NCBI RefSeq assembly: GCF_013304445.1
Contig: NZ_JAAITA010000023.1
Location: forward strand, 1 to 43,006
Direction: 5' to 3'
Source of the DNA: Blautia hansenii
Lineage (GTDB): Bacteria > Bacillota > Clostridia > Lachnospirales > Lachnospiraceae
Length of the DNA stretch: 43,006 bases
The notes below the pieces were generated by a model. That model saw only the letters and a list, made by a program, of their open reading frames with translations. It was not told the DNA's origin and searched no databases. Positions 4,021 through 42,960 of the stretch are shown here, piece by piece (the first letter of the stretch is position 1; each line of letters starts with the position of its first letter). A program made the position numbers and the translations under genes.

Positions 4021-5133
4021 TTAGTTTGTAATAACCTGCTCTGTTTCTTTGTCAAATACATGAACTTTTTCCATGTCTAATGCAAATTTAACAGTATCGC
4101 CTGTTCTTGCTGTTGTACGAGGATTTACCCTTGCTGTCATAGAGAATCCTTCTGTATCAAAGTACAGATAAACTTCAGCACCAAGTAATTCGTAAACAGT
4201 AATTTTTCCTTCGATTGTGCTGTTCGGGAATGCCTGGATACGAGCTTCATCGTCATATACATGCTCTGGACGAATACCCATAACAACAGTTTTTCCATCA
4301 TATCCGCCTTCGATAAGGGCTTTTTTCTTGGAAGCAGGTACCTGAAGTGTAGTGCTGCCAATCTGTAATTCAACATCGTTTCCTTTTACATGTACAACTG
4401 CATCTAAGAAGTTCATCTGAGGAGAACCGATGAATCCAGCAACGAATAAGTTACATGGAGCATTGTATAATGTCTGCGGTGTATCTACCTGCTGTACAAC
4501 ACCGTCTTTCATAACAACGATTCTTGTACCCAGTGTCATAGCCTCTGTCTGGTCATGTGTAACGTAGATGATGGTAGCACCTAATCTTTCATGTAATTTG
4601 GAAATCTCAGTACGCATCTGAACACGAAGTTTTGCATCCAGGTTTGACAGAGGTTCGTCCATTAAGAATACTTTAGGCTCACGCACGATAGCACGTCCCA
4701 TAGCAACACGCTGTCTCTGACCACCGGAAAGAGCTTTCGGTTTACGGTCTAATAATTTTTCCAGGTCAAGAATCTTAGCTGCTTCTTTTACCATTTTGTC
4801 AATCTGGTCTTTTGGAACTTTTCTCAGTTTCAGACCAAATGCCATGTTGTCATAAACTGTCATATGTGGATACAGAGCATAGTTCTGGAATACCATTGCA
4901 ATATCTCTGTCTTTTGGTTCTACATCGTTTACTACTTTGTCGCCAATCTTTAATGTACCGCCTGTGATTTCTTCCAGACCTGCAATCATACGAAGTGTTG
5001 TAGATTTACCACAACCTGAAGGTCCTACGAAGATGATGAATTCTTTATCTGCAATTTCAAGATTGAAATCTTTTACTGCTTCAAAGCCATTTGGGTAAGT
5101 CTTGTTAATATGCTGTAATGATAAACTTGCCAT
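4021..5133 (-). CDS. msmK: Sugar ABC importer ATPase, MsmK/UgpC family
   Basis: 370 aa. It is the cytoplasmic ATPase of carbohydrate ABC importers (CUT1 type). It shows Walker [10 protein letters not shown], the signature LSGGQRQR, Walker [10 protein letters not shown], the H-loop VTHDQ, and a C-terminal TOBE-type regulatory domain with [17 protein letters not shown] at 5143-5148 lies 9 bases before the ATG at 5133; the seven-codon longer frame lacks this spacing. No permease or binding protein is adjacent, matching MsmK-type ATPases that serve several importers from one unlinked gene. A minus-strand promoter TGGAAA - 17 nt - TATACT lies near 5184-5212. Confidence 0.93.
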
Positions 5134-5349
5134 TTTAATTATCCTCCTAAACATATGCGATTGCTCTCGTTTGAACTGTGTTTAGTATACCTCTATCCCT
5201 GCTTTTTTTCCATAGGTCAAATGCCCAAATATTACTTTAAGTCTTTGTAAGCATGGACAATCCCCTAACCAATCCCGTCATTTTGACTGATTTTCAGAAA
5301 TTCCATATACAATCTATACAACCTGTCCATAAAAGATTTGAAAACAGGC

Positions 5350-5378
5350 TTTACAGCCCTTCTCATCTTCCTTATAAT
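5350..5378 (+). promoter_or_regulatory. Sigma-A promoter of the 88-aa gene
   Basis: TTTACA (5350-5355), a 17-nt spacer and TATAAT (5373-5378), 52 bases before the start codon. The rest of the 297-base gap between 5134 and 5430 shows only the probable msmK promoter near 5184-5212. Confidence 0.7.
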
Positions 5379-5430
5379 AAATATCACAATGCGAAATAGA
5401 AGCGATTACAATACAGAAAGGACGTTTTTC

Positions 5431-5697
5431 ATGTTCCGATTAATGGGAAATATTTATAAAGACACACGCATTCAGAAAAGCACGGTGATCTGTGATGATA
5501 CCAAAAACAGCCGGACAAAAAAGGTATTTCACTGTCTGGACTGCATCTGCCATGAGTTTGATCTTCCATCCCCCATATGGCTGGATGCCAACATCAAAGA
5601 CTTTCAGAAATTTTCAAAAGTACGGTTTTCGCAGGATAATTTTATTGAAATCCTGGACTTTGACTATCTGGAACTACAGATTATTGAAGAAGACTGA
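5431..5697 (+). CDS. Conserved small protein of unknown function
   Basis: 88 aa, beginning MFRLMGNIYKDTRI and ending in an acidic LQIIEED tail. It contains two cysteines in CLDCICHEFD and a conserved-looking PIWLDANIKDF segment. The frame is open from 5338, but AGAAAGGA at 5415-5422 supports the ATG at 5431. There is no signal peptide or membrane segment, so it is probably cytosolic. It has its own promoter and a terminator after it. I recognise the general look from Lachnospiraceae genomes but cannot assign a function. Confidence 0.72.
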   Translation: MFRLMGNIYKDTRIQKSTVICDDTKNSRTKKVFHCLDCICHEFDLPSPIWLDANIKDFQKFSKVRFSQDNFIEILDFDYLELQIIEED

Positions 5698-34995: not shown

Positions 34996-35022
34996 AAGGT
35001 ATCGGATTTGTGAATTTCCTAC

Positions 35023-35836: not shown

Positions 35837-36358
35837 ATGATAACAATTAAAACAGAAAACTACAACCTTATTTCTCAGGATTTTTACAATAAAACAATAG
35901 ATTCTCTTGATCTGAACCTTATTTCATGTGTCTGCGGTCACTCCGGCTGTCTTATCCGTTATGGCTCTTACAGACGCAGCATCCAGCTTGCTGACAGGGT
36001 TCTCTCCCTTTCAGTCATTCGTGTGTACTGCAAGGCATGCGGGCATACCCATGCACTGTTACTTTCATCCATGATCTCTTATTCACAGATCCCTCTGGTT
36101 CTGCACGTCCGTCTGATTCATGCTTATGAGCATGAAACCGGATTCCGGAACATACTGGCAGAACAATACCTCGTGGATGAAAACAACCTGAAATCCATCA
36201 TCCGGAACTACCGTTTACATTGGAAGCAGCGGCTGCTTTCCATGAGGCTTCACCTCCCCGATATCCCCAGCCTGATTTCAGGATGTTTTTCCCTCTTTTC
36301 CAGACAGTTCATGCAGATGAAATCAACCTCCAATCAACTTTTTATCCTGCCAACATAA
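35837..36358 (+). CDS. Transposon zinc-ribbon protein (DUF6431-like)
   Basis: 173 aa. Two zinc-binding pairs are visible (CVCGHSGC and VYCKACGHTHALL), followed by a helical region that looks like a DNA-binding domain. Small proteins of this type precede the transposase in such elements and probably help bind the ends. No good ribosome site precedes the ATG at 35837. An inverted repeat TGTTATCATATGG/CCTATGATAACA (35727-35739, 35834-35845) reaches its start codon. Confidence 0.65.
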   Translation: MITIKTENYNLISQDFYNKTIDSLDLNLISCVCGHSGCLIRYGSYRRSIQLADRVLSLSVIRVYCKACGHTHALLLSSMISYSQIPLVLHVRLIHAYEHETGFRNILAEQYLVDENNLKSIIRNYRLHWKQRLLSMRLHLPDIPSLISGCFSLFSRQFMQMKSTSNQLFILPT

Positions 36359-36410
36359 CCTTACACGACAGGTCTGCTTTTATCCTTTATCCTTTAGAAA
36401 AAGGAGGCAG

Positions 36411-37664
36411 ATGAAACTTATGAAACAAGAAAAGCAACAGGAAATCGCACTGATGCGCTATGGCGCCATCGCACCTATTATTGCAGGACTTGATGAACGT
36501 TATCCAAGCAAGACCGCTTTTTACACGGAAATTTCTGCAAAAGGACTCATGGGACCCGACGGGAAGCTCCATCATTATGCTCCCGCCACCATTGAAAAAT
36601 GGTATCTGGACTATCAGAACCATGGTTTTGAAGGTCTCGTCCCGAAAGGGCGGTCAGATGCCGGCATGAGCCGCAAGCTTGACGAAGAACTTCAGGAGAG
36701 AATCCGGTATTTCAAGACCAACTATCCACGCATGTCTGCGGCCGCTATTTACAGGCAGCTGAAATCCGATGGCTCTGTAATAAACGGACAGGTATCCGAA
36801 TCCACCGTCAGCCGCTTTGTGAAACGGCTTCAGTCGGAACTGCGGCAGACACCGAACAAGGATATGCGCCGCTATGAACGCCCTCATATCAATGAGGTCT
36901 GGTGCGGGGACAGCAGCGTCGGTCCCCGCCTTACAGATTCGGATGGCAAAAAACACCGGATCTATATCATTGCCCTGATTGATGATGCCAGCCGCTTCAT
37001 TACCGGAATTGATGTGTTCTATCATGATAACTTTATCAACCTGATGTCGGTTATGAAATCAGCCATAGCAAAGTATGGGCGCCCAAAAGTTTTCAACTTT
37101 GACAATGGTAAATCTTACAAAAACAGGCAGATGGAACTCCTTGCCGCAAGAATCGGTACAACACTCAGTTACTGCCAGCCATACACTCCCACCGGAAAAG
37201 CCAAGATTGAACGCTGGTTCCGGACGATGAAGGATCAGTGGATGGCAGCCCTTGATATGCGGGATTTCCATTCACTGGAAGAACTGAGGGGAAGTCTGTA
37301 CGCTTTTGTCCAGCAATACAACCAATCCCCCCATTCTTCCCTCCGTGGACTGTCCCCACAGGACCGTTTCTTTTCGGAACCGGAGCAGATCCGCAGACTT
37401 TCTGAGGAAGACATCCGTCAAAATTTCCTTCTGGAGATTGAACGCCGGGTATCTGCTGACAGTGTAATCGTCATCGACCAGATTGAATACGAAGTTGATT
37501 ATCGTTTTGCACGGCAGCGTATCCGCCTGCGCTATTCCCCGGATATGAAAGAAATCTTCATTGTGGAAGCTGACGGGACGCTGACACCAATCCGGCTTCT
37601 CAATAAAACCGAAAACGCATTGATAAAAAGAGAAAAAGTACGCTTATGCAAAGGAGACGAATGA
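36411..37664 (+). CDS. DDE transposase with integrase (rve) core
   Basis: 417 aa. An N-terminal helix-turn-helix part (AKGLMGPDGKLHHYAPATIE, RMSAAAIYRQLKSDG) is followed by an rve core with the DDE triad in WCGDSSVG (Asp), NFDNGKSY (Asp) and AKIERWFRTMKDQW (Glu), then a Mu-type C-terminal barrel. AAAGGAGG precedes the ATG. The triad is intact, so it may be active. Its stop overlaps the ATPase start as ATGA. Confidence 0.92.
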   Translation: MKLMKQEKQQEIALMRYGAIAPIIAGLDERYPSKTAFYTEISAKGLMGPDGKLHHYAPATIEKWYLDYQNHGFEGLVPKGRSDAGMSRKLDEELQERIRYFKTNYPRMSAAAIYRQLKSDGSVINGQVSESTVSRFVKRLQSELRQTPNKDMRRYERPHINEVWCGDSSVGPRLTDSDGKKHRIYIIALIDDASRFITGIDVFYHDNFINLMSVMKSAIAKYGRPKVFNFDNGKSYKNRQMELLAARIGTTLSYCQPYTPTGKAKIERWFRTMKDQWMAALDMRDFHSLEELRGSLYAFVQQYNQSPHSSLRGLSPQDRFFSEPEQIRRLSEEDIRQNFLLEIERRVSADSVIVIDQIEYEVDYRFARQRIRLRYSPDMKEIFIVEADGTLTPIRLLNKTENALIKREKVRLCKGDE

Positions 37665-38470
37665 TTATGGATTACACTGCAAGATATGGATTGGAGTTCA
37701 ATCCTTTCCTAAAGAACTCAAAGGAAGTCCTCGTAGAAACACAGGAATACAAGGAGGTTCTGTTCCGTCTGAACTACCTGCTTACCACAAAAGGTTTCGG
37801 CCTCCTGACCGGAAGCGCCGGAAGAGGAAAGACCACCGCTGTCAGGAACTGGGCTTCGGGACTGAATACTTCCCTTTATAAAGTAGTTTATTCCAGTCTT
37901 TCCACCCTGACTGTAAATGATTTTTACCGGAATCTTGCCGCTGAACTTGGAGCCCAGCCTGCATTCCGCAAGACCGATAACTTCAAAATCATTCAGGATG
38001 AAATCAACCGTCTCGTACTTGAGAAACGACAGACGCCTGTCATCATCATAGATGAAGCGAACTATATCGGAAACGCTGTACTCAATGACTTAAAAATGCT
38101 GTTCAACTTTGAAATGGATTCCAAAGACCGGGCTGTTGTTCTTCTTTCCGGTCTGCCACAGCTCAACAGCACCCTGCGTCTAAGCATCCACGAACCTTTC
38201 CGCCAGAGAATTGTCATGAATTATAATCTGGAAGGCATGACAAAAGCAGAAGGGCATTCCTATGTTGCTGCCAAACTGAATGGCGCCGGATGCACACAAA
38301 CGGTATTCGAAGACAATGCACTGGAAGCAATCCTCAATGCAGCGAATGGGACCCCACGTATGATCAACAAACTGTGTAATGCAAGTCTGTTGGTTGGAAA
38401 CAGCTCAAATTTAAATATCATAACCGCCGATGCCGTCATGCAGGCAATCAATGACTGTGAACTCGGATAG
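37661..38470 (+). CDS. Transposition AAA ATPase (ExeA/TniB-like)
   Basis: 269 aa. Walker A is GSAGRGKTTAVR, Walker B VIIIDEANYIG, with sensor residues in LLSGLPQLN. It begins YGLEFNPFLK, like ExeA-type and transposition ATPases that choose or load target DNA. The start at 37661 (ATGA overlap) or 37667 (better spacing to AAAGGAG) cannot be separated. It forms the ATPase half of the transposase pair. Confidence 0.88.
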   Translation: MIMDYTARYGLEFNPFLKNSKEVLVETQEYKEVLFRLNYLLTTKGFGLLTGSAGRGKTTAVRNWASGLNTSLYKVVYSSLSTLTVNDFYRNLAAELGAQPAFRKTDNFKIIQDEINRLVLEKRQTPVIIIDEANYIGNAVLNDLKMLFNFEMDSKDRAVVLLSGLPQLNSTLRLSIHEPFRQRIVMNYNLEGMTKAEGHSYVAAKLNGAGCTQTVFEDNALEAILNAANGTPRMINKLCNASLLVGNSSNLNIITADAVMQAINDCELG

Positions 38471-38998: not shown

Positions 38999-41245
38999 CT
39001 ATTCAAATTCAATTTCTTCTTCTGCCTTACTGTATACATCAATCTGATTTTCTATATCGATTCTATTGACAAGCCATCCTCTTACCATACACAATTTTAT
39101 AAATTCATCAATACGATTTATACCATTCATCTCCTTTAACGTAACAACCACACCAAATTGTAATCCTCTTCCTGCTTTTGGAACAAGTCGTTCCTTCGTT
39201 TTAATACTCAATCCCCACATTCCCGCTGAATAAGCTTTTCGAGGCCTTGCATTTTCTTTAATTGCCTCACTAATATGTTTTATATTATCCCATTTTCGAT
39301 ACAGTTTACGTGCATCTTCTTCATAAATATTTTGAATTCCTTCATCTGCTTGTTTGTTGTAATCTATAGCTTTAATCATGGCTTTTCCATCTTTTTCAAT
39401 TATTCTTCCAAAGTGGAGATCCATTTCTGTACTTGTATAATCTACACCCTGATTTCTATCGCTTTTTGGAAAATATGCCAATGTTGCCTTTGCAAAAAAA
39501 GGATGTGCCTTCATATCTTGTGGAACTGGAATATTATACGTATATGTTTCATATTCATCAATGGTTCCATTCATAATAAATCTAATTTCATCATCTTTGG
39601 AATGTGTAATATCCTCAATACGTTTTGGTACAACCCCATACCCCATGGCAAAATATTTATTATCCTGACGATTCCATCCTGCTGCCGAATCAATTATCAG
39701 TGCTTTTGCAACTTCTCTGCTTAATCCTACGATATGGATAAGATATGCCATTTTTCTTGTAATCCAAGGTGCAGCAAATGAAGTTCCACATACTGTTGCC
39801 ATGCCTAAAGGTTCACAAACTGTAATTTTTTCCTGTTTATCTCCCCCATAGTAGCAAATATCTGGTTTATAAAAGAAAGATAGTACCGGTCCTACCCTTG
39901 TATATGAAGCTGGTTTACCGTTAAAATCAACAGCATTAACTATTAATGAGTTAAGTGAATCTGCTGGAGCACCTATTTTCACAGTTCCTGTCATTTTTCT
40001 TGTTTTGTTTGTCCCTGCGACAACAAATATAACATCATACTCACATTGAATCTTATCTAACTCTGCTGCTTCGGGCGATATAAAATTGGGATCGATTTCC
40101 ATCGCCGATCCTAATGAAAGATTCCATACTTTAATATCTCTGTTACTCGCTATGATATCTCTAATCATTTTAAGGATTGTAAACGAACTGAATCCACCTG
40201 CTGTTGCTACTCCAAAATGTTTTACCCTAAATCGTCCACAGCCATCATCCAGTTTTGGATTAAAAGCTGGTCCATCCACAATTATTGAAGTTACCGCTGT
40301 TCCATGGAAACGATCTTCTGTAGTAATTGTGATGTTCGGATCAACCATATTGTGTGAAACGACCCAATTATGAAAATATACCCTTTTGTCAAATTGAGTA
40401 TCAATAACACCAACTGTTGGTTCATTTGTGGGTTCTGGAATCGATATTAAACTTTCTGATTCATCTTTCACAATATCTTCATCTATAACAATTTCTGCTA
40501 AATCTCTAACATGCATTGCAATCAAATATGGGGCATTATTTTGCAAAATCTGAATTTCTCTACCGTCAAGTCTAAGAGTTGTTTCATCAATCATTTTAGC
40601 ATGTATCATATCAATGCCAAATTTGCTTAATAATTCTACTGTATTTACTCCTGTTTTATAAATCGTTACAATTGATCTATCTTTGATTGTTTCATCTACA
40701 CGATCTAATCTAAAACTTTCTACATAATTAGAATCTACAACTACTCTTAAAAAACTAGATTTAGCCATTATATTTACATTATATTTTCCACTATTTATTA
40801 ATTGGGTATCTTTATCTGTTATTTCACCATTATAATACTTATTTAGAACCAATTCACATTTTTCTAAATATTGTATTGATTTCCGCAAAGCTTCAAAAGA
40901 AATAAAATACGTAAAAACATGCTTCTTTACTTTTTCATTTTTTGCGTTATTCTCATCCACAAATTTTGCCCCTCTAATTGACATGTTGGGATGTGAACTT
41001 TTTTCTCCAAGCAAAATCTGCAACCTATTGCTCTTTGCAACAATGCACTTATAATGAACGCTGATTAGAACTCCACCTATCGTCATCTCATTTTTCCAAT
41101 AGTTCTCTAATTGTTTTAACTGTTGTTTCATATTTCCGACATGCTCAGCTGTAACTTTTGAACCTTTTGGAAGATTCGTCGGTCCAAAACCATTCACATT
41201 TTTCCGCTTCTGAAACTGTCCTCTAAGTTGTAATATATCATTCAT
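38999..41245 (-). CDS. S8 subtilisin-like protease, IetS-like
   Basis: 748 aa with no signal peptide, so cytoplasmic. The catalytic triad is D282 (GVIDTQFD), H314 (DRFHGTAVTSI) and S489 (CGTSFAAPW), with the oxyanion Asn413 in VAGTN. A 270-residue N-terminal domain and a 180-residue C-terminal beta-rich domain flank it. The gene overlaps the upstream AAA ATPase by 8 bases. This ATPase-protease pairing is that of IetAS, known as an anti-phage/plasmid-exclusion system. It is AT-rich compared with the core genes, a sign of transfer. An aerolysin-type or housekeeping role is unlikely. Confidence 0.85.
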   Translation of the reverse strand: MNDILQLRGQFQKRKNVNGFGPTNLPKGSKVTAEHVGNMKQQLKQLENYWKNEMTIGGVLISVHYKCIVAKSNRLQILLGEKSSHPNMSIRGAKFVDENNAKNEKVKKHVFTYFISFEALRKSIQYLEKCELVLNKYYNGEITDKDTQLINSGKYNVNIMAKSSFLRVVVDSNYVESFRLDRVDETIKDRSIVTIYKTGVNTVELLSKFGIDMIHAKMIDETTLRLDGREIQILQNNAPYLIAMHVRDLAEIVIDEDIVKDESESLISIPEPTNEPTVGVIDTQFDKRVYFHNWVVSHNMVDPNITITTEDRFHGTAVTSIIVDGPAFNPKLDDGCGRFRVKHFGVATAGGFSSFTILKMIRDIIASNRDIKVWNLSLGSAMEIDPNFISPEAAELDKIQCEYDVIFVVAGTNKTRKMTGTVKIGAPADSLNSLIVNAVDFNGKPASYTRVGPVLSFFYKPDICYYGGDKQEKITVCEPLGMATVCGTSFAAPWITRKMAYLIHIVGLSREVAKALIIDSAAGWNRQDNKYFAMGYGVVPKRIEDITHSKDDEIRFIMNGTIDEYETYTYNIPVPQDMKAHPFFAKATLAYFPKSDRNQGVDYTSTEMDLHFGRIIEKDGKAMIKAIDYNKQADEGIQNIYEEDARKLYRKWDNIKHISEAIKENARPRKAYSAGMWGLSIKTKERLVPKAGRGLQFGVVVTLKEMNGINRIDEFIKLCMVRGWLVNRIDIENQIDVYSKAEEEIEFE

Positions 41246-42284
41246 CCATGCTCTCCTTAAGTTCTCTAGCTACAGTGCTCCTAGGAATCCTCGATAAAAT
41301 TTCTATTTCTCTAATTGTAAATTTCTGAGATTTTAATTCTTTCAAATTTTGAGGCTGTTTACCATTAACTGCATAGTACAATCGTCTAAAATAATCCATT
41401 CCATCATCAGGATCACTAAACGCAACCGCTGTCCTTATTAAATTTTTTAAATCTCCTGGATATGGAATTGGTTCCATCAATCCAATGATTTTACGAAATA
41501 AGCGGATATCCTTACTTGCTAATTTAAATTTTACTAAAAACTTATTTAAAAATTCTTCTGCGATTGACATTAAATCTCCTTTTGTATATCTGTTGAAATC
41601 TATCACAGAATCAAATCTTCTAATTAAAGCTTTATCGAAATGTTCATATAAATTGGTTGTCGCAACTAGTACAACTCTTTCATCCATATAATCCATTCCT
41701 TTAAGCATAGAAGATGTCGCTCTTCCCATTTCTCGCAAATCATTTGTATTAGTTCTGTCTAGTGCAATTGCATCTATTTCATCAAATAGTATTATTACAT
41801 TTTCTGGATGAACAAAATTATTTATTTCTTTAAATAGAGAAGAAATATTTTTTTGTGTCTGCCCTAATTTACTATCAATAACAGCAGCAAAATCCACCAT
41901 ATAAATATCTCTATTTAAGATACGAGACAATTGTTTGACCGCTTCCGTTTTCCCTGTTCCCGGCGATCCTTGAAATAGGAATTTATTTATTCCAGCTTTA
42001 TGTGCAACTGCATGTACAATTCCAAGAATATCCTGTGTGACCGAATCTGGAAGCCATAAACTATCTCCAGATGATTCAATTTTTTCAAATAACGCTGAGT
42101 CACTTTCATTCATTTGAGGTACAAATGTATTCGCATTTGACATTAATGCCATAATATACTCAGCTAATTGGTAATCTCCTGATTTATCAAAGTCTTTTGC
42201 AATCTCATATGCTTCACTTCTAAAACCTGCATCATTTTCTTCTGAATAATATTTTATCAAATTAAGAATGCTTTTCTTCTTCAT
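41238..42284 (-). CDS. AAA+ ATPase, IetA-like
   Basis: 348 aa. One AAA+ module: Walker A GSPGTGKT (106-113), Walker B IILFDEID (164-171), sensor 1 N211 in VATTN and arginine fingers R222-R223 in ALIRRFD. It is of the FtsH/spastin-like classic group, with a short N-terminal helical part and a C-terminal KFTIREIEILSRIPRSTVAR helix-turn-helix-like end. It is the first gene of the operon, under a perfect promoter, and overlaps the protease. It probably senses infection or feeds substrates to the protease (inference from the IetAS family). Confidence 0.87.
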   Translation of the reverse strand: MKKKSILNLIKYYSEENDAGFRSEAYEIAKDFDKSGDYQLAEYIMALMSNANTFVPQMNESDSALFEKIESSGDSLWLPDSVTQDILGIVHAVAHKAGINKFLFQGSPGTGKTEAVKQLSRILNRDIYMVDFAAVIDSKLGQTQKNISSLFKEINNFVHPENVIILFDEIDAIALDRTNTNDLREMGRATSSMLKGMDYMDERVVLVATTNLYEHFDKALIRRFDSVIDFNRYTKGDLMSIAEEFLNKFLVKFKLASKDIRLFRKIIGLMEPIPYPGDLKNLIRTAVAFSDPDDGMDYFRRLYYAVNGKQPQNLKELKSQKFTIREIEILSRIPRSTVARELKESMDE

Positions 42285-42310: not shown

Positions 42311-42339
42311 ATTATATCTCCACGGGACATTTTTGTCAA
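42311..42339 (-). promoter_or_regulatory. Promoter of the ATPase-protease operon
   Basis: On the minus strand a perfect TTGACA (42339-42334), a 17-nt spacer and a perfect TATAAT (42316-42311). It is one of the strongest promoters in the window. Confidence 0.88.
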
Positions 42340-42352
42340 TATTGGGACAAAA
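42324..42352. promoter_or_regulatory. Candidate operator over the defence promoter
   Basis: TTTTGTC (42331-42337) and GACAAAA (42346-42352) form an inverted repeat with an 8-bp spacer over the -35 box. GGGACA is repeated at 42324-42329 and 42344-42349, exactly 20 bp apart. The site lies between the two divergent promoters. No regulator gene is evident nearby. Confidence 0.5.
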
Positions 42353-42600: not shown

Positions 42601-42876
42601 ATGAAAGCAACAAAAATAAAAATGAAAACAGGATGTGCACAGTCCAACAATACAACTGAAATATCCGAAATTTACGTAGAAGGATGTACTAACCCAGGAT
42701 ACTTTGCTAAAGAATCCTTATATGATTACCTAAAAAATAACCCTGATTCCATTCAGGTAAACATTTATCCTTATCCAAACTTAATCCCTGCACTCAGCAG
42801 TAATCAAGAAAAATATGTTCGTTCAGAGCCAAATGATACTCCGAATGATAATCTTTTAAAATTGCCAAGAAACTAA
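42601..42876 (+). CDS. DUF3892-like small protein
   Basis: 91 aa (starts MKATKIKMKTGCAQSNNTTE). The end KYVRSEPNDTPNDNLLKLPR resembles DUF3892 proteins, which end in a VRS.PN.T..DNLL.LP pattern. AAAGGAAA precedes the ATG. It is probably cytosolic. It is divergent from the ATPase-protease pair and shares its control region, so it may be an accessory gene of that cassette. Function unknown. Confidence 0.65.
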   Translation: MKATKIKMKTGCAQSNNTTEISEIYVEGCTNPGYFAKESLYDYLKNNPDSIQVNIYPYPNLIPALSSNQEKYVRSEPNDTPNDNLLKLPRN

Positions 42877-42900
42877 TCCATACTAAGCAATATTTACATC

Positions 42901-42934
42901 AAACACGTAGATGAAAGATGCCATCTACGTGTTT
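42901..42934. terminator. Hairpin after the DUF3892-like gene
   Basis: AAACACGTAGATG (42901-42913) pairs perfectly with CATCTACGTGTTT (42922-42934), 13 bp. The T run is weak. Confidence 0.6.
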
Positions 42935-42960
42935 GCAATTTCTATAATAAACCTAGATTA

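Follow-up and report, generated by a model that had tools for sequence, protein, structure and literature searches.

How AAA/subtilase toxin-antitoxin and defence pairs stay silent, and are then triggered, is the question raised by a locus at the end of a Blautia hansenii contig (NZ_JAAITA010000023.1; 43,006 nucleotides, analysed at full length and called here the window). An earlier note on this DNA had described an AAA+ ATPase gene overlapping a subtilase gene, and had read the two as an IetAS-like anti-phage pair. From the sequence, and by analogy with relatives studied experimentally, we consider it probable (roughly 60%) that the locus forms a self-contained unit, acquired by horizontal movement, that works as an autoregulated module of toxin-antitoxin type and belongs with the AAA+/subtilase pairs related to IetAS. 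The ietAS module is present in a single copy in the 3.28 Mb genome. Paired boxes in front of ietA, together with a predicted DNA-reading end of IetA, form a new element that the earlier note did not report, and the functional unit extends past the two genes to the promoter and boxes at 42311-42350 (Table 1).

Paired boxes on the ietA promoter

The two candidate operator boxes of the window are arranged head-to-tail, 20 bp apart, and flank the -35 element in front of ietA. A contig scan of genomes yielded 69 ietAS loci for comparison. Paired GTCC was found in 64 of 66 upstream regions (window included), with a spacing of 20 nt in 52 and 21 nt in 12, and GTCCC was present twice in 60 of the 66, as compared to none of 13,200 mononucleotide shuffles. 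The set was widened by adding plasmid, viral-contig and further genome copies, giving 107 loci with IetA, of which 71 formed a non-redundant set (IetA with <90% mutual identity, a start that could be read and an upstream stretch of 100 nt or more). At least nine of the ten core bases were kept in 66 of these 71 relatives and in 1 of 1,420 shuffles. A -10-like hexamer (at least 4/6) was seen downstream of the boxes in 65 of the 66. Where the spacing was 20 bp (46 regions), the ten core columns carried 1.7-2.0 bits of information, the T before each box 1.4-1.6 bits and the A after box 1 1.4 bits, with nearly all remaining columns at about 1 bit or less.

The exact box pattern occurred 62 times in loci L012-L079 (2.0 Mb, two strands), and 60 of these occurrences were within 200 nt upstream of ietA; the chance expectation in the window is 0.02 matches. 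The boxes have remained fixed although the proteins diverged to about 50% identity and few neighbour families recur. What is looked for in a type II toxin-antitoxin operon, a conserved candidate operator over the promoter, was found here in those 66 of 71 copies, and in the window the promoter is a consensus one. The DNA itself shows the boxes, how well they are conserved and where they sit on the promoter, as it does the overlapping genes and the two enzymes that they encode. No published description of this paired-box operator was found among the matches listed in the open-access literature searched.

A different arrangement was observed on an Enterococcus durans plasmid (L090), where GGGACA and TGTCCC stand inverted upstream of position 1592, before the AAA gene of a distant pair with a helix-turn-helix-like end. 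These inverted boxes may be a related operator with another geometry.

The two enzymes and their characterised kin

The ietA and ietS open reading frames (ORFs), both on the minus strand, overlap by 8 bases and matched Pfam families AAA (6.1e-24) and Peptidase_S8 (4e-32), respectively. IetA has all the parts of a classical AAA ATPase: Walker A (P108-T113), Walker B (D168-E169), the sensor Asn (N211) and the Arg fingers (R222-R223), all of them, like G106, unchanged in 66/66 sequences (65 loci and the window). The Asp/His/Ser triad of IetS lies in a subtilisin fold, as in family S8, and D282, H314 and S489 were unchanged in 65/65 sequences (64 loci and the window). Copies that were broken, truncated or missing had been excluded from the alignments (L051, L058, L060 and L080 for IetA; L046, L058, L060, L071 and L080 for IetS). 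The overlap and the intact catalytic residues described earlier were thus confirmed. No hydrophobic leader was seen in IetS when the sequence was judged by eye.

All 50 matches listed in a fold search with IetA were AAA domains. Against PDB sequences, IetA matched AAA ATPases, with no solved IetAS homologue among the best 60 of 262, and IetS matched, among the matches listed, subtilases and chance matches only, again without a solved IetAS homologue. In the protease extensions, which the earlier note suggested might carry sensing or target recognition, two assignments are tentative: residues about 188-265 of IetS are propeptide-like, at the place of the subtilisin propeptide, and the C-terminal part is akin to the beta-domain of KP-43. 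An acidic, low-confidence tail was noted at residues 733-748 (39002-39047); its end is conserved in the window clade, and the tail is absent from two distant IetS that were aligned. It may be a contact for IetA. The pore-loop position of IetA is K in 62, R in 7, H in 1 and M in 1 of the 71 non-redundant sequences, and Y or W in four Afg2/VCP-like domains compared. An aromatic pore loop as a hallmark of all other IetA was ruled out, the other AAA relatives varying between Y, F, L and H, with one K.

The PADLOC IetA profile matched residues 4-345 of IetA (7.9e-38) and the IetS profile residues 256-736 of IetS (2.4e-63), which places the adjacent genes in the broad IetAS group on profile matches rather than by the full PADLOC system rule. 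The NCBIfam equivalog models of the IteAS pair (NF042956 and NF042959) scored far under their cut-offs (IteA, 100.5 bits against 510; IteS, 161.7 bits against 900), so the window pair is a relative of the IteAS equivalog and not IteAS itself. The earlier designation as an IetAS-like pair therefore stands in the broad sense and fails in the narrow one. Two listed loci that NCBI names iteS (H9 and H12) were about 24-25% identical over 59-62% of the window IetS, and the IetS of the mycoplasma M. hyorhinis was 42.6% identical over the full length.

Neutralisation of a toxic protease by its ATPase has been shown by others in such kin. In a minimal mycoplasma cell, loss of the ATPase alone is reported as lethal and loss of both genes as viable (PMC6755753). 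A second study reports that the mycoplasma protease is toxic on its own and that the ATPase neutralises it, with the same result for pairs of M. bovis, M. feriruminatoris and M. gallisepticum; M. hyorhinis is among the species that it names as having homologues (PMC8562856). For SgiAT, an ATPase that neutralises a subtilase toxin is similarly described (PMC5006074). By analogy, IetS of the window would be the toxin and IetA its antitoxin.

Distribution, mobility and neighbours of relatives

IetA preceded IetS on the same strand in 66/66 loci where both were found, and the commonest spacing of the two genes was the 8-base overlap. The nearest relatives bear Lachnospiraceae record titles. In a tree of 62 IetS sequences (a quick method, with 11 near-duplicates left out and long-branch warnings), Bacillota were intermixed with Spirochaetota, Pseudomonadota, Fusobacteriota and others, groups that were taken from record titles and include some metagenome bins with possible contamination. 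A 55-row group containing the window (Shimodaira-Hasegawa-like approximate likelihood ratio test, 95) left M. hyorhinis and two Macrococcoides outside. The view of the locus as a Firmicutes version of IetAS was not upheld, the group not being confined to Firmicutes.

The ietAS pair is accessory, as had been claimed. A full-length copy was found in 1/20 genus genomes, the window's own; any match at all was seen in four others (one divergent full-size subtilase, one 57-residue remnant with a stop, two weak S8 matches). Among 299 family genomes, 16 clade-level IetA loci were detected in 15, all adjoining a full-length IetS with alignment ends -1 to 13 nt apart. In two cases a clade IetS had no detected IetA; one of them (G556) lies at a contig edge, and the other (G450) is a fragment. 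A core housekeeping pair was ruled out by this sporadic occurrence. Relatives were also present on plasmids and viral contigs: 75 viral-contig loci matched the IetA profile, and six of these were clade-level (50-61% identity), all with both genes and two of them near-identical. IetS was not detected beside a seventh, divergent viral-contig IetA. One unannotated phage-collection record carries both ietA and ietS.

Broken copies were found on either gene, as IetS fragments (L009, G450), an IetS cut at a contig edge (G556) and an IetA with a stop (L051). In L046 and L071, both with an intact IetA, a frameshift interrupts ietS at a T-rich run near codon 458, and L071 has further breaks; decay shared by the two loci, phase variation and sequencing error are all possible causes. 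On two L. salivarius plasmids (L208 and L209, both at 4501-5505) a C-terminally shortened IetA of 334 aa sits among small hypothetical genes, with iscB nearby in L209. IetS was absent from the 10 kb examined around these orphans, and L209 also lacked the boxes. The orphan IetA is possibly an antitoxin decoy that would shield the incoming plasmid from resident ietAS-type modules.

We surveyed the neighbours of 48 non-redundant loci, taking up to two ORFs of at least 110 aa on each side within 4 kb; 163 ORFs were selected and 159 (75 + 84) scanned against PADLOC (E up to 1e-10). They matched 203 PADLOC families (75 ORFs) and 123 (84 ORFs), with a best E of 7.5e-252, compared to 35 families, a best E of 4.4e-42 and mainly UvrD-type helicase models for 79 control ORFs taken from five arbitrarily chosen parts of one genome, that of the window; these figures count families and not proteins. 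Among the top 25 names listed were DpdF, TIR-NLR, a CBASS-type cyclase, Cas8c, restriction-modification methylases and AbiEi. Defence-gene neighbours in other genomes, which the earlier note had proposed as a check, were thus seen above the control. Resolvase-type recombinases were found in 7/159 neighbour ORFs, and many of the remaining neighbours were ordinary metabolic genes. The neighbourhood and the viral-contig copies fit mobile defence or competition between elements.

These data bear on what the pair is selected for. A pure addiction module, stabilising mobile DNA with no selected anti-phage role, would agree with the recombinases and with the plasmid and viral-contig copies, and SgiAT is reported to promote maintenance of Salmonella Genomic Island 1 (SGI1) (PMC5006074), while the pair of pTiC58 is described, in the title of a cited work, as determining plasmid stability. 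We regard this reading as possible but doubtful, as defence families are common beside relatives; the two functions are compatible. It is unlikely that the pair is instead a dedicated anti-phage system in which IetA would sense infection and, ClpXP-like and with no restraint on IetS, feed it substrates or activate them. PADLOC does count IetA and IetS as defence proteins, NCBIfam terms the kin anti-phage, and the excess of defence families over the control points in the same direction; yet the kin act as antitoxins, and the lack of Y or W at the pore-loop position in all 71 IetA argues weakly against threading. The anti-phage label of IetAS kin reportedly originates in a 2020 defence survey.

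A predicted helix-turn-helix in IetA and its possible link to the boxes

The autoregulated module that we favour calls for a protein that reads the boxes. Across phyla the boxes stay with the two genes although the neighbours differ, so their binder should be encoded by the pair. The AlphaFold2 model of IetA (mean predicted local distance difference test score 86.2) ends in three helices, at residues 314-319, 324-331 and 335-347, with scores of 91-94 for the C-terminal blocks up to residue 340 and 70 for the last block. At a limit of E 10, a profile of 25 C-terminal segments found nine sequences in the PDB, and seven of the nine were named regulators or DNA-binding proteins ('regulatory protein' 4ua1, AlpA, PhiH1 repressor-like protein, SpoIIID and three LacI members). 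The same place in a distant IetA, that of the E. durans plasmid, matched 26 Pfam families, most of them helix-turn-helix; all of those listed scored below curated cut-offs. In the 71 non-redundant relatives (one unscored), the helix-turn-helix core and the boxes were both present in 65 of 70, the core only in 1, the boxes only in none and neither in 4. The four were M. hyorhinis, the two Macrococcoides, in which the helices look intact and the basic residue of the core is lost, and one orphan L. salivarius IetA.

Several observations weigh against this assignment and against the module as we picture it. The PDB matches were weak (best E 0.025), and the C-terminal segment of the window's own IetA matched no Pfam family. 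One relative (L049) has the core and a single box. The core pattern was picked after the sequences had been looked at, and the Fisher p of 5e-6 for the table ignores kinship; on a tree built without the helix-turn-helix, the coupling reduces to 2-3 contrasts that are independent of each other (median p of the sign test, 0.5), so that the link is suggestive. The box pattern occurs once in the genome of the window, as does the reversed control. M. hyorhinis and Macrococcoides lack boxes, and pairs of this kind could therefore behave as toxin and antitoxin without them. For SgiAT, no post-segregational killing from the native promoter is reported (PMC5006074). In L051 (Listeria costaricensis, 233-1279), a premature stop cuts IetA off ahead of the lid and the helix-turn-helix while the IetS frame is intact and the boxes are present, which is odd under a strict toxin-antitoxin model.

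That the C-terminal helices dock IetS and another protein binds the boxes is improbable, for although the missing Pfam match and the single box of L049 would suit it, most PDB matches are regulators, the four members without the core also lack boxes, and the boxes travel with the genes across phyla.

A candidate switch

In the autoregulated module, IetS would be a latent intracellular protease that IetA binds and restrains. The predicted helix-turn-helix of IetA would read the boxes: IetA, alone or with IetS, would occupy the two head-to-tail TGTCCC boxes through it and shut its own consensus promoter. If IetA were lost, titrated or inactivated, whether because the element is lost or because a phage or plasmid invades, IetS would be freed and could cleave cell proteins, and the cell would be stopped or killed; the outcome may be abortive defence, element maintenance or both. 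We infer the reading of the boxes, repression by binding, the trigger, the targets and phage defence. More tentatively still, IetA might be antitoxin and sequence-specific repressor in one, its helix-turn-helix on boxes two helical turns apart, with its ATP- or IetS-bound state setting both protease release and operon output. The protein and its operator would then move between phyla as one switch, and infection would be read as loss of IetA from the DNA and from IetS.

Surroundings of the module

The region has a G+C of 0.32-0.35, as compared to 0.37-0.50 in the rest of the window, and a transposon-like trio (35837-38470; a weak DUF6431 match, an rve transposase and an AAA_22 ATPase) lies between an M20 peptidase gene and ietAS, in agreement with the AT-rich setting beside a transposon noted earlier. 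No convincing terminal inverted repeats were found near the trio. The M20 DNA, to the left of the region, matched in 17/20 genus genomes (own included; one match partial). Three genus relatives read beyond M20 had nothing in common with the window past position 35013; there, one gene order is common to two of the three, and the third (G017, 3.6 kb) agrees with neither. This empty-site comparison applies to the left side, the contig ending at 43006 on the right. The DUF3892 gene is co-linear with ietAS in another locus (L013), and in a further one (L012) about 5.9 kb lie between them.

Table 1. Features of the ietAS module and its flank in the window
Feature	Position	Strand	Remarks
ietS-like gene	38999..41245	minus	subtilase, 748 aa, triad D282/H314/S489; PADLOC and Pfam matches
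IetS catalytic domain and C-terminal beta-domain	39137..40426	minus	residues 274-703, KP-43-like
Propeptide-like part of IetS (tentative)	40451..40684	minus	residues about 188-265
ietA-like gene	41238..42284	minus	AAA+ ATPase, 348 aa; Walker A/B, N211, R222-R223 intact
Predicted C-terminal helix-turn-helix of IetA	41244..41345	minus	residues about 314-347, AlphaFold2
Promoter	42311..42339	minus	TTGACA-N17-TATAAT, 12/12 to consensus
Operator box 2 (candidate)	42324..42330	minus	ATGTCCC, between -35 and -10
Operator box 1 (candidate)	42344..42350	minus	TTGTCCC, upstream of -35
DUF3892 gene	42601-42876		small, divergent from ietAS
Terminator-like hairpin	42900..42935	plus	strong, after the divergent DUF3892 gene, next to the module

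Comparison with known systems

An operator kept in 66/71 diverse copies provides a candidate binding site that would link an antitoxin to gene control, and the paired boxes are a DNA signature with which the ietAS clade can be found and annotated. The mycoplasma toxin-antitoxin modules take the place of a proteobacterial defence pair as the closest experimental reference. TA132/3 of Mycoplasma mycoides subsp. capri (JCVISYN2_0132/_0133) shares the gene order of the window pair, AAA-ATPase then subtilisin-like protease, and its proteins are of similar size (353 and 757 aa against 348 and 748 aa). The likeness was drawn through the M. hyorhinis homologue rather than from the T133 and A132 sequences themselves: an AAA gene lies directly upstream of an S8 gene, and the pair aligns with that of the window over the full length. 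Unlike the window, M. hyorhinis has a degenerate C-terminal recognition helix in IetA and no TGTCCC boxes.

The IetAS/IteAS pairs of PADLOC and NCBIfam likewise consist of an AAA+ gene followed by an S8 gene that overlaps it, but in the two loci that NCBI names iteS (L089 and L093) the 200 nt before the AAA start contain neither GTCCC nor GGGAC. SgiAT of Salmonella Genomic Island 1 and IetAS of pTiC58, known here from papers only, also place an AAA antitoxin upstream of a subtilase toxin. In autoregulated type II toxin-antitoxin operons the antitoxin carries a DNA-binding part and the operator covers the promoter, which is the arrangement proposed here; the window differs from them in having direct-repeat boxes and in the proposed role of an AAA+ ATPase as antitoxin.

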